Shown here one piece after another: positions 788 to 8,016 of a stretch of DNA of 64,000 bases. The DNA is from Rhodospirillaceae bacterium (GTDB lineage Bacteria > Pseudomonadota > Alphaproteobacteria > GCA-2731375). Within the stretch, counting starts at the first letter, position 1; each line of letters starts with the position of its first letter. The stretch lies in contig JABIRL010000320.1 of assembly GCA_018667855.1 (NCBI GenBank), forward strand, positions 1 through 64,000, given 5' to 3'. The notes under the pieces were generated by a model. That model saw nothing but the letters and a program-made list of their open reading frames with translations. It did no database searches and was not told the DNA's origin. A program made the position numbers and the translations under genes.

Positions 788-893
788 AACGCGACTTATA
801 CGACCGAAATCCCCTCGCCGCCAGTGGTGAAAATCAGCCCGTTCCAGGACCTCAATTTGACAGCCGACGGGCGAGCAACCATTGTCATTTGTC

Positions 894-1316
894 ATGGAAT
901 TTGATTTCGAAAATATGGCCACATTGATGCGCAGCGGCATACCGCACATGGCGGAAGTGGGCCTGGAACTGCTCTCCATGGACGAGGGGGGCGCGGTTGG
1001 AAAAATACCGCATCGCGAGGAATTTGTCGGCGATCCCGAAACAGGCGTCGTTCATGGCGGTATTGTCACCGTGCTGCTGGATAGCTTGAGCGGCATGTGC
1101 ATCATCCCCCTGCTGGGTGGCATGGCGACGACGGCGACCTTGGACTTGCGCATTGATTATCTGAAGCCGGCGGCGCCGCGCGAAGATCTCTTCGCCAAGG
1201 TTCATTGTTATAAACTCACCCGCAACATCGCCTTTACCCGCGGTGTCGCCTATCAGAGCGATATTGACGATCCCATCGCCCATGCCGCCGGTTCCTTCAT
1301 GGTGACGCGATCATGA
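894..1316 (+). CDS. PaaI-family hotdog thioesterase
   Basis: Hotdog signature GVVHGGIVTVLLDSLSGMC...; ORF open from TTG 882, ATG at 894. Confidence 0.75.
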   Translation: MEFDFENMATLMRSGIPHMAEVGLELLSMDEGGAVGKIPHREEFVGDPETGVVHGGIVTVLLDSLSGMCIIPLLGGMATTATLDLRIDYLKPAAPREDLFAKVHCYKLTRNIAFTRGVAYQSDIDDPIAHAAGSFMVTRS

Positions 1317-1750
1317 AATTGAAGCTGTCAGACGGCATCAATGCCGCCAGGAAAAGTGGCGAACTGCAGCCTTTTATCCAGGCGGTGCCCTATTTCCGCT
1401 GGCTGAACCTGCGGGCGGAACGTCTGGGCGATGAATTGATTACCACAATGCCCTATCAGGACATGCTGATCGGCAATCCCGTACTGCCCGCCCTGCATGG
1501 CGGTGTGACCGGCGCGCTGTTGGAAAGCGCGGCGATGATATCCCTGATCGGCGCCATGGAAGAGCCGATCCTGCCTCGGATCATCAACATAACGGTGGAA
1601 TATCTGCGCCCCGGCCGGGCGGAGGACAGTTTTGCCACGGGTATTGTCACGAAACAGGGCCGCCGGGTCGCCAACGTCCGCGCCATGGCCTGGCAAGGCG
1701 ACCGGGCGAAGCTGATCGCCACCGCATCGGCCCATTTCATGATGACCTGA
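1313..1750 (+). CDS. PaaI-family hotdog thioesterase (second copy, ATGA overlap)
   Basis: PALHGGVTGALLESAAMISL hotdog motif; 4 bp overlap with the upstream thioesterase. Confidence 0.75.
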   Translation: MKLKLSDGINAARKSGELQPFIQAVPYFRWLNLRAERLGDELITTMPYQDMLIGNPVLPALHGGVTGALLESAAMISLIGAMEEPILPRIINITVEYLRPGRAEDSFATGIVTKQGRRVANVRAMAWQGDRAKLIATASAHFMMT

Positions 1751-1830
1751 GGGGCGTTACGGCCCAAATAGGTTCGCCTCGCTCTGCTTTCTGTTATGCT
1801 TACGGCCATGAAGTCGGAAGCGAAGTTATC

Positions 1831-2946
1831 ATGAAGCTGACCATTGAACGTTCCGCATTATTGGGCGCCCTGGGCCATGTCCAAAACGTTGTTGAACGGC
1901 GCAACATCATACCGATTCTGTCTAATGTGCAACTGGTTGCCGACGATACGGGCTTGAACGTGACCGCCACCGACCTTGATCTCGCCATGGTGGAAGCGGT
2001 GCCGGCCGAGGTTCAGCAGACGGGCGGCACCACGGCGCCCGCGCATATGCTGCACGACATTGTGCGCAAATTGCCCGACGGCGCCCAGGTTGAGCTGGAC
2101 AGCGGCAGCGAAGACGGCCGCATGACGGTGCGTGCCGGGCGCTCCAATTTCGCCCTGTCCTGCCTGCCGCAAGAGGATTTTCCGGTGATGGCGGAGGGTG
2201 ATTTACCCCACCGGTTCGCCGTAGCGGCAGTGGATCTGCAGCGTTTGATCGAAAAAACACGGTTCGCGATCTCCACCGAGGAAACCCGTTATTATCTGAA
2301 CGGTATCTATTTGCATGCCCCGGAAGGGGCGGGCGTCCTGCGCGGCGTTGCGACCGACGGCCACCGCCTGGCCCATGTGGAAATCGCCCTGCCGGATGGT
2401 GCCGCGACCATGCCCGGCGTAATCCTGCCCCGCAAGGCGGCGCTGGAAGTACAGAAACTGATCGAGGGCAGCGCGGGAGAGGTCGAGGTTGCGCTGTCCG
2501 ACAGCAAGATACGTTTTACGTTTGGCGAGATCGTTCTGACATCGAAACTAATTGACGGGACCTTTCCCGACTACCAACGGGTGATACCAACGGGCAATGA
2601 CAAGGTGATGGAGGTTGATTGCAAAAGTTTTTCCGCCGCCGTCGACCGCGTGGCGACCATCAGCTCCGAAAAATCCCGGGCCGTAAAGCTGGCTGCGCAG
2701 GGTGCCGCGGTGGTGTTGTCCGCCAGTAACCCCGAACAGGGCAGCGGTACGGATGAAGTGGCCGTGACGTTCAGCGGCGAGGAGGCCCTGGAAATCGGCT
2801 TTAACGCCCGGTATTTGCTGGATATCGCGGGCCAGATCGAAGGTGAAAACATTATTTTCGATCTTTCCGACGGCGCCTCGCCAACCATAATTCGTGATCC
2901 CGCCGATAGCGGTGCGTTGTATGTCCTCATGCCCATGCGGGTGTGA
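1831..2946 (+). CDS. dnaN: DNA polymerase III beta sliding clamp, copy 1
   Basis: 371 aa; MKLTIERSALL, RYYLNGIYLH, VATDGHRLAH, FPDYQRVIP, C-terminal YVLMPMRV, all diagnostic of DnaN. Confidence 0.97.
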   Translation: MKLTIERSALLGALGHVQNVVERRNIIPILSNVQLVADDTGLNVTATDLDLAMVEAVPAEVQQTGGTTAPAHMLHDIVRKLPDGAQVELDSGSEDGRMTVRAGRSNFALSCLPQEDFPVMAEGDLPHRFAVAAVDLQRLIEKTRFAISTEETRYYLNGIYLHAPEGAGVLRGVATDGHRLAHVEIALPDGAATMPGVILPRKAALEVQKLIEGSAGEVEVALSDSKIRFTFGEIVLTSKLIDGTFPDYQRVIPTGNDKVMEVDCKSFSAAVDRVATISSEKSRAVKLAAQGAAVVLSASNPEQGSGTDEVAVTFSGEEALEIGFNARYLLDIAGQIEGENIIFDLSDGASPTIIRDPADSGALYVLMPMRV

Positions 2947-3122
2947 CGAATATGGCTATTTTGAGGCCGGAAACCGAAGGCAAAAAGAGTGCGGTCGATG
3001 GCGCTTTCTGCTATGCTTTCGCCCCGACAAGGCCGGTTGTGATTCTCTAGCGCTTCGGCCTCGGCGGGACGGCACATTCCGCCGTAAAGCCGTTTATTGG
3101 GATCTATCATAGCGAAGAAAAC

Positions 3123-4238
3123 ATGAAGCTTACCATCGAACGATCAGCCCTTTTGCGCGCCCTTGGTCATGTCCAGAACGTGGTCGAACGGCGCAATACC
3201 ATCCCCATATTGTCCAATGTGCAATTGGTCGCGGACGAGGCCGGGTTGAGCCTGACCGCGACGGATCTGGATCTGGCCATCGTGGAAACGGTGGCGGCGG
3301 AAATCCAGCAGCCCGGCGGCACGACGGCACCCGCGCATATCCTGCACGACATCGTCCGCAAACTACCCGATGGGGCACAGGTGGAGCTGGACAGCGCGAC
3401 CGACGATGGCCGCCTGACGGTACGCGCGGCACGTTCGAAATTTGCCTTGTCCTGCCTGCCCCGGGAAGATTTCCCGGTCATGGCCGATGGCGATCTGCCG
3501 CATCAATTCGTTCTGCCCACCGCCGATCTGCGGCGCCTGATCGAAAAGACCCGTTTTGCCATTTCCACGGAAGAAACCCGTTATTACCTGAACGGCATCT
3601 ATCTGCATGCCCCCGATGATGCCCCTGTGCTGCGCGGCGTGGCGACCGATAGTCATCGCCTGGCTCATATTGAAGTACCCCTGCCGCAGGGCGCGGCCGG
3701 CATGCCCGGCGTGATCGTCCCGCGCAAGGCCGCCCTGGAAGTGCACAAATTGATCGAGGACGGCGACAGTACGGTGGAAATCGCCCTGTCGGACAGCAAG
3801 ATCCGCTTTGCCCTGGGCGACATTGTCCTGACCTCGAAACTGATCGATGGCACCTTCCCGGATTATCAACGGGTGATCCCGGTCGGCAACGACAGTCTGA
3901 TGGAGGTTGATTGTAAAAGTTTTTCGGCCGCCGTGGATCGGGTGGCGACCATCAGCTCGGAAAAATCCCGGGCCGTGAAGCTGGCGGTGAATGGCGATGC
4001 GGTGGTGCTGTCGGCCAATAATCCCGAACAGGGCAGCGGCACGGACGAAGTACCGGCCAATTTCAATGGACAGGACGGCCTGGAAATCGGCTTTAACGCC
4101 CGGTACCTGCTGGACATCGCCGGACAGATTGACGGCGAAAACGTCTGTTTCGATCTTTCCGACGGCGCCTCGCCAACCATAATCCGGGATGCCGCTGATC
4201 AGGGCGCGTTATATGTCCTGATGCCCATGCGGGTTTGA
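3123..4238 (+). CDS. dnaN: DNA polymerase III beta sliding clamp, copy 2
   Basis: 371 aa, aligns ungapped to copy 1 with about 66 substitutions by hand count (about 82% identity); same C-terminal MPMRV. Confidence 0.97.
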   Translation: MKLTIERSALLRALGHVQNVVERRNTIPILSNVQLVADEAGLSLTATDLDLAIVETVAAEIQQPGGTTAPAHILHDIVRKLPDGAQVELDSATDDGRLTVRAARSKFALSCLPREDFPVMADGDLPHQFVLPTADLRRLIEKTRFAISTEETRYYLNGIYLHAPDDAPVLRGVATDSHRLAHIEVPLPQGAAGMPGVIVPRKAALEVHKLIEDGDSTVEIALSDSKIRFALGDIVLTSKLIDGTFPDYQRVIPVGNDSLMEVDCKSFSAAVDRVATISSEKSRAVKLAVNGDAVVLSANNPEQGSGTDEVPANFNGQDGLEIGFNARYLLDIAGQIDGENVCFDLSDGASPTIIRDAADQGALYVLMPMRV

Positions 4239-5512
4239 GAGGGTTTTTGCTGGCCGCGCGGGAAAACATTATTGCGAACGGGCAGGCCGATGCCGATGCC
4301 GATACCGATTCTGGGGTCGCGACGCCCTGCCTTGTGCAGCGGTTACGTCTGCGCAATTTCCGCAATTACGGCCAACTCGCCCTGGACATCCGGGCCCCCG
4401 TGATAGTCTTGAGCGGCGCCAATGGTGCGGGCAAAACCAACTTGATGGAGGCCATTTCCTTCCTCTCTCCCGGCCGCGGTCTGCGCCGCGCCAAATTGCG
4501 CGACGCACAGAAATCCGGGACCGGCGATGACAATGGCAATGGCAATGGCGAAGTTGACAGCTGGGCGGTGGCCGCAACGGTTCTGACTCCCGGCGGCGTG
4601 GTAGGGATCGGCAGCAGTCTGGCAACGACGGAAAAAGGTACGGACCGGCGTCTGGCCCGCCACGACGGCCAAACGGTGCAACCCTCCAGCCTAGCGCAGG
4701 TGATCGGCGTGCAATGGCTGACGCCCCGGATGGATCGGCTGTTTCAGGACGGCCCAGCATCACGGCGGCGCTTTCTGGATCGTCTGGTATTGGGCCTGGA
4801 CCCGGATCATGGCCGCCGGGTCGGTGCCTATGAACGCAGTCTGCGGGAACGGGCCAAATTGTTGCGTGATAATCACGGGAATGGTGGTGGTGGTGGCAAT
4901 GGTCAGGGCGGCGACCCAGCCTGGCTGTCGGCCTTGGAAGCGCGCATGGCGGCCGATGGTGTCGCCGTGGCGGCAGCCCGGCGCGAGGCGCTGGAGCGGC
5001 TGCAACGGCTTTTAGCGGAAACGCCGGGGCGATTTCCCAAACCCGGATTGGCTATAGACGGCCGTTTGGAAGGCTGGCTGGACGAGCTGCCGGCGGTGGA
5101 AGTTGAAAGCCGTTTTGCGGCGCTTTTGGCCGACAACCGACGCCGCGATGGCGAACGGGGCGGCACCGGCGAGGGGCCACACCGTTCCGACCTGGTGGTC
5201 CGGCATTTGGACAAGGGTCAACCGGCTGCGATCTGTTCCACCGGCGAACAGAAGGCGCTGTTGATCTCCATCATTTTGGCCAATGCCCGGGCCGAGGCGC
5301 AACGCCGGGGCGCGGCGCCCATATTGTTGTTGGATGAAATCACCGCGCATTTGGATCGGCGGCGGCGCGAGGCGCTGTTCGACGAAATTTTGACTCTGGG
5401 CGGGCAGGCCTGGTTGAGCGGCACGGACCGGGATCTGTTCGATGGCTTGTCGGGCCCGGCGCAGTTCGTGGCTGTGAATGGCGGAAATGCCGTGTTGGAA
5501 GATAGTGTTTGA
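4235..5512 (+). CDS. recF: DNA replication/repair protein RecF (start uncertain)
   Basis: LRNFRNY, GANGAGKTNLMEAI Walker A, SLRERAKLLR, STGEQKALLISIILA signature, LLLDEITAHLD Walker B. Located between dnaN and gyrB. N-terminal about 33 aa are low complexity. Confidence 0.95.
   Translation: MRGFLLAARENIIANGQADADADTDSGVATPCLVQRLRLRNFRNYGQLALDIRAPVIVLSGANGAGKTNLMEAISFLSPGRGLRRAKLRDAQKSGTGDDNGNGNGEVDSWAVAATVLTPGGVVGIGSSLATTEKGTDRRLARHDGQTVQPSSLAQVIGVQWLTPRMDRLFQDGPASRRRFLDRLVLGLDPDHGRRVGAYERSLRERAKLLRDNHGNGGGGGNGQGGDPAWLSALEARMAADGVAVAAARREALERLQRLLAETPGRFPKPGLAIDGRLEGWLDELPAVEVESRFAALLADNRRRDGERGGTGEGPHRSDLVVRHLDKGQPAAICSTGEQKALLISIILANARAEAQRRGAAPILLLDEITAHLDRRRREALFDEILTLGGQAWLSGTDRDLFDGLSGPAQFVAVNGGNAVLEDSV

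Positions 5513-5544: not shown

Positions 5545-8016
<2,472 letters not shown>

Follow-up and report, generated by a model that had tools for sequence, protein, structure and literature searches.

Two closely related beta clamp genes in tandem at the dnaN locus of a Rhodospirillaceae bacterium

To our knowledge, almost all bacteria use one clamp. The dnaN–recF–gyrB locus analyzed here, part of a 64,000-nucleotide stretch of contig JABIRL010000320.1 (the window), carries two dnaN genes in a row. It raises the question of whether both encode functional clamps, how the second copy arose, and what a cell may gain from keeping the two.

Two intact clamp genes before recF

The genes of the locus are arranged as follows:
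1313–1750, forward strand: thioesterase-superfamily gene upstream of dnaN1
1831–2946, forward strand: dnaN1, the upstream beta clamp copy (371 aa), intact with ATG start and stop codon
3123–4238, forward strand: dnaN2, the downstream beta clamp copy (371 aa), intact with ATG start and stop codon, at the canonical place before recF
4235–5512, forward strand: recF (TIGR00611, 226 bits), the start of which overlaps the dnaN2 stop
5551–8016, forward strand: gyrB (TIGR01059, 970 bits)

Pairwise alignment of the two proteins yielded 66 differing residues and no indels (82.2% identity). The initial annotation, which had described two 371-aa clamp ORFs without indels and with about 66 differences, was thus exact in its count and right in its coordinates. 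The VDRVATISSEKSRAVKL segment and the MPMRV C-terminus, which it had read as common to both copies, were found to be identical. At the nucleotide level, the genes were 78.3% identical, and 170 of the 242 differing bases (out of 1116) were at third codon positions. Gene conversion between dnaN1 and dnaN2 was considered and rejected, as windowed identity displayed no broad tract. A single 36-base run near the 3' ends (window 2856–2891 and 4148–4183) was identical between the copies; it could be a short gene-conversion tract or chance.

Family assignment gave a uniform picture. Against TIGR00663 (DnaN equivalog, curated cut-off 137.65), dnaN1 scored 287.2 bits and dnaN2 295.3 bits, and both matched the three Pfam clamp domains (PF00712, PF02767, and PF02768). 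Sequence comparison of dnaN2 with the Caulobacter clamp 5wce resulted in 421 bits. Judged by family score, the three domains, and the pocket residues, dnaN1 and dnaN2 are ordinary DnaN clamps. The AlphaFold2 model of dnaN1 (pLDDT 92.1, pTM 0.87) matched the Caulobacter crescentus clamp 6jir with TM values of 0.96–0.97, and dnaN1 is accordingly predicted to adopt the clamp fold. A third dnaN was absent from the rest of the 5.3-Mb genome (371 contigs searched).

Distribution and history of the duplication

The genus comparison comprised 11 genomes, the genome of the window being G000. The order thioesterase–dnaN1–dnaN2–recF–gyrB was present in three of them (G000, G001, and G008), and the other eight had a single dnaN. 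The downstream copy was closer than dnaN1 to these single-copy orthologs, with 88–92% identity for dnaN2. Compared with the rest of the genus, both G008 genes (dnaN1, L121:7194–8366; dnaN2, L121:8596–9756) had additional insertions of Gly-rich loops, partly at the same positions in the two copies (after residues 39 and 214).

An assembly or binning artefact, in which the dnaN genes of two strains were joined on one contig, would mimic such a tandem. The assembly is fragmented (371 contigs), and the genus does include one such false duplicate: in G003, an apparent tandem turned out to be a single locus overlapping at contig ends, with the same dapA-like gene upstream on both contigs. The copies in the window, however, are only 78% identical in DNA and lie on one contig with the same flanks; moreover, the same gene order is found in two other species, together with a copy-specific phylogeny. 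We consider the artefact extremely improbable. The initial annotation had raised this objection and had proposed a search for tandem dnaN in related genomes; the tandem recurs in the assemblies of two further species, G001 and G008.

The region upstream of the clamp genes differs between the tandem species and their relatives. In the single-copy genomes, with the exception of G005, a further gene separates the thioesterase-superfamily gene from dnaN:
G002, G003, G004, G006, G007, G009, and G010 (e.g., L117:5959–6861), directly upstream of dnaN: dapA-like gene

We found no close ortholog of this gene in G000, G001, G008, or G005, where the best matches were at most 60%. The place of the relatives' dapA-like gene is taken by the additional dnaN in the tandem clade. 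The thioesterase-superfamily genes themselves form an overlapping tandem pair (window 882–1316 and 1313–1750), the members of which are only about 30% alike; this pair was observed in all genus members whose contig extends that far.

In a tree built from gyrB, recF, and the gene for the penicillin-binding protein, G000, G001, and G008 formed one clade (support 95–100). In the clamp trees, the copy-1 genes grouped together and the copy-2 genes grouped together, with moderate support. Independent duplication in each species was rejected by the AU test (p = 0.0007 for nucleotides and p = 0.0003 for proteins), which allowed both a duplication inside the three-species clade and an older duplication with later losses. 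The phylogeny, by which the initial annotation had suggested dating the event, points to one duplication before the split of the three tandem species. Within each genome, the dS between dnaN1 and dnaN2 was around 1. Since this level is similar to that of orthologs between species, the duplication does not appear to be recent.

A short element accompanies each copy:
1786–1801, forward strand: promoter-like element upstream of dnaN1, GCTTTCTGTTATGCTT, exact match
3003–3018, forward strand: promoter-like element upstream of dnaN2, GCTTTCTGCTATGCTT, exact match

Exactly one copy of the 16-base element GCTTTCTGYTATGCTT was located upstream of each dnaN. Allowing up to two mismatches, we obtained two sites in the window against 0.03 expected, and two sites in the whole genome, where the reversed control pattern had four matches. 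Every genus member compared had a recognizable form of the element in front of dnaN. A scan with the sigma-70 consensus yielded nothing useful. The element resembles a dnaN promoter region that was duplicated along with the gene, its promoter role being presumed. In the scenario that we propose, dnaN would have been duplicated once together with this element, before the three-species clade diversified; the dapA-like gene would have been lost from the tandem clade, with the extra dnaN now in its place.

Selection on the two copies was assessed by pairwise Nei–Gojobori values. Among the three species, dN/dS was 0.083–0.106 for dnaN1 and 0.052–0.077 for dnaN2, and the mean for the single-copy dnaN of the genus was 0.044. 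These low ratios indicate that both copies are under strong purifying selection, which is somewhat less strict for dnaN1. Pseudogene decay was ruled out at a dN/dS of about 0.09. A copy evolving free of purifying selection, with dN/dS near 1, would have spoken against the initial annotation, and values of about 0.09 and 0.06 were found instead. The relative-rate test of this genome versus G004 revealed 46 unique changes in dnaN1 and 11 in dnaN2 (p = 4e-6). The imbalance in G001 and G008 had the same direction and was weaker (p = 0.006–0.11, depending on the outgroup). By these counts, dnaN1 is the faster-evolving copy.

Pocket, dimer interface, and possible roles of two clamps

Dimer-interface and DNA-contact positions were selected according to what is generally known about the E. 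coli structure. Residues were assigned to their counterparts in E. coli beta (K-12 dnaN), and the list of pocket residues was adopted from the literature (PMC11139829). Only five sites were fixed different between the copies, including residues 177 and 73:
2047–2049, forward strand: dnaN1 codon 73, Met where dnaN2 has Ile; counterpart of E. coli Lys74 at the dimer interface
2359–2361, forward strand: dnaN1 codon 177 (GGC), retaining the ancestral Gly
3651–3653, forward strand: dnaN2 codon 177 (AGT, Ser), E. coli Gly174 position, pocket subsite I

The pocket residues of subsites I and II were identical in dnaN1 and dnaN2, except at the E. coli Gly174 position. This residue was Ser in dnaN2 of all three species, with the codon AGT throughout. 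It was Gly in all dnaN1 genes, all single-copy relatives, and 99 of the 99 other loci scored; in the wider count of loci, Ser occurred at this position only in dnaN2. Gly174 in E. coli belongs to subsite I and occupies one of the two pocket sites described as non-conserved among bacteria (PMC11139829). Ser at this position is normal in B. subtilis and in at least one other solved clamp. Since Ser is normal in B. subtilis and the site is non-conserved across bacteria, the Gly-to-Ser change may be nearly neutral. The E. coli G174A mutation touches the cleft, yet the mutant is viable alone (PMC4045847). With Ser natural in B. subtilis and G174A supporting the growth of E. coli, it is more probable that the change in dnaN2 tunes the pocket than that it disables it.

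Among the mapped sites of the dimer interface, the Lys74 position was the sole one fixed different between the copies. Partial differences were observed at the Arg103 and Arg105 positions (Asn/Lys at Arg105), and the remaining mapped interface residues were identical. The DNA-contact residues were the same or nearly so in both copies. Because the interface residues are nearly identical, heterodimers of dnaN1 and dnaN2 are expected if both are expressed. In E. coli, mixed clamps with one defective pocket form in vivo and support growth (PMC3022782). The initial annotation had held that homodimers and a heterodimeric clamp are all possible; the near-identical interfaces do predict such mixing, but an enforced heteromer is unsupported. 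Its further proposal, a bacterial route toward PCNA-style subunit specialization, did not hold up in its strong form: the interfaces have hardly diverged and predict random mixing. An obligate heteromer of that type is disfavored, as ordered assembly needs diverged interfaces and those found here are near-identical. A preferred β1–β2 heterodimer, in which the Gly177 and Ser177 pockets serve different partners on each protomer, would be a natural asymmetric clamp. We regard this arrangement as doubtful.

The reading toward which we lean, with modest confidence, is that of two functional clamps, which would mix into homo- and heterodimers and differ mildly in partner binding. Both clamps would be made and both loaded, and the matching interfaces would lead to a mixture of homodimers and heterodimers. 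The cell may thus run on two clamp kinds, or on mixed rings. With less certainty, the altered dnaN2 pocket and the accelerated evolution of dnaN1 might stem not from plain dosage but from a partial division of labor, with different partners on the two protomers, for example, the replicative polymerase versus translesion or repair polymerases. The dnaE and Y-family polymerase counts were similar across the genus (1–2 matches each in the tandem species, as in the relatives); therefore, there is no partner change to explain a division of labor. Extra replicative or Y-family polymerase copies in the tandem species were considered, and none were seen relative to the relatives.

Plain dosage or redundancy is a serious rival, and we judge it possible, if less probable. 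Here, two equivalent clamps would be kept for a higher clamp supply, and Ser would be drift within the tolerated range. The otherwise unchanged pocket, DNA-contact, and interface residues are consistent with equivalent clamps, as are the promoter-like element kept at both copies, the natural Ser of B. subtilis, and the viability of E. coli with G174A alone (PMC4045847). However, the copies have diverged to a dS of around 1 without homogenizing, and copy 1 evolves faster. The sole pocket change, moreover, affects a site that is otherwise invariant in the sampled loci, and it is fixed in three species.

The position of this change in the pocket also brings resistance by target duplication into consideration. 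One copy would then be a resistant clamp against a clamp-binding inhibitor, comparable to griR/mypR of actinomycetes; the griselimycin and mycoplanecin producers owe their self-resistance to a second DnaN gene (PMC10817943). Whereas griR/mypR sit in NRPS clusters near transposases, the pair described here is at the home locus and is vertically inherited, and the remainder of its pocket is unchanged. A scan limited to ten large ORFs of the window detected no NRPS domains. We consider this explanation unlikely, and return to two functional, mixing clamps as the preferred reading.

Three points go beyond the initial annotation: the Gly-to-Ser change in dnaN2, the doubling of the promoter-like element, and the confinement of the tandem to a three-species clade. 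Engineered mixed clamps have been used in E. coli to study pocket sharing among clamp partners. The clade represents a natural experiment, with two near-identical clamps per cell that differ mainly at one pocket residue, and with single-copy sister species as controls. It would allow one to ask if bacteria split clamp work between subunits.

Other clamps in the class and known systems

We sampled 289 genomes of the class for further second copies. Outside the genus, most of these were 27–36% identical and lay elsewhere in the genome; no unfused tandem of close clamp paralogs was detected among the placeable second copies in this sample. In G029, G065, G066, G170, G296, G303, and G310, the second clamps were divergent (27–36% identity with the query) and none formed a tandem with dnaN; G066 had two divergent clamps with identical scores.

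In two genomes from a different genus of the class, two clamp matches fell inside one reading frame:
L135:3630–6044 and L136:3457–5892, both reverse strand (also L138–L140 and L142): fused double clamp ORF, 804–811 aa

The fused ORF was present in six of the seven genomes searched of its genus. It is located at the dnaN place, after a gene read as dnaA and before a recF-position gene and gyrB, the neighboring dnaA and recF being assigned by eye and not by profile. The same query gave no separate clamp match in the genomes with the fused ORF, and no match at all in G332. The matches in the sister genera were single clamps of ordinary length. The fused protein consists of two complete clamps head to tail, the halves of which are 43% identical. 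The subsite I residues were kept in each half, and the halves differ at the Asn320, Val344, and Arg365 positions. The structure model (pLDDT 66, pTM 0.38) was too poor for showing a closed ring. Judged from its sequence, the ORF looks like a natural single-chain double clamp, possibly with two different pockets. It would then be a second, independent departure from the scheme of one gene forming a homodimer.

Among the known systems, the bacterial DnaN proteins of C. crescentus (6jir/5wce) and E. coli (2pol) are likewise three-domain clamps with conserved pocket residues. Whereas the usual DnaN is encoded by one gene, the home locus described here carries a tandem pair of closely related paralogs. 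We found no report of close tandem dnaN genes at the home locus in the literature searched, and their absence is not thereby proven. A wide survey reports several clamps per genome (PMC8357120). The griR/mypR clamps are also encoded by a second dnaN, but they are tied to an NRPS cluster and transposases, neither of which was seen here (PMC10817943). In B. anthracis and its relatives, dnaN-2 encodes a second clamp; loss of dnaN-1 leads to a mutator phenotype, loss of dnaN-2 has no such effect, and the double mutant was unobtainable (PMC3290774). Those genomes also have two clamp genes, but the Bacillus copies are about 40% alike, whereas the present ones are 82% identical and adjacent.

In the PCNA ring of Sulfolobus, diverged interfaces bring the subunits together in a defined order. 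This archaeal heterotrimer is built from several clamp paralogs (cited in PMC8357120). Paralogs might share one ring in the tandem clade as they do in Sulfolobus, but the interfaces are diverged there and near-identical here.
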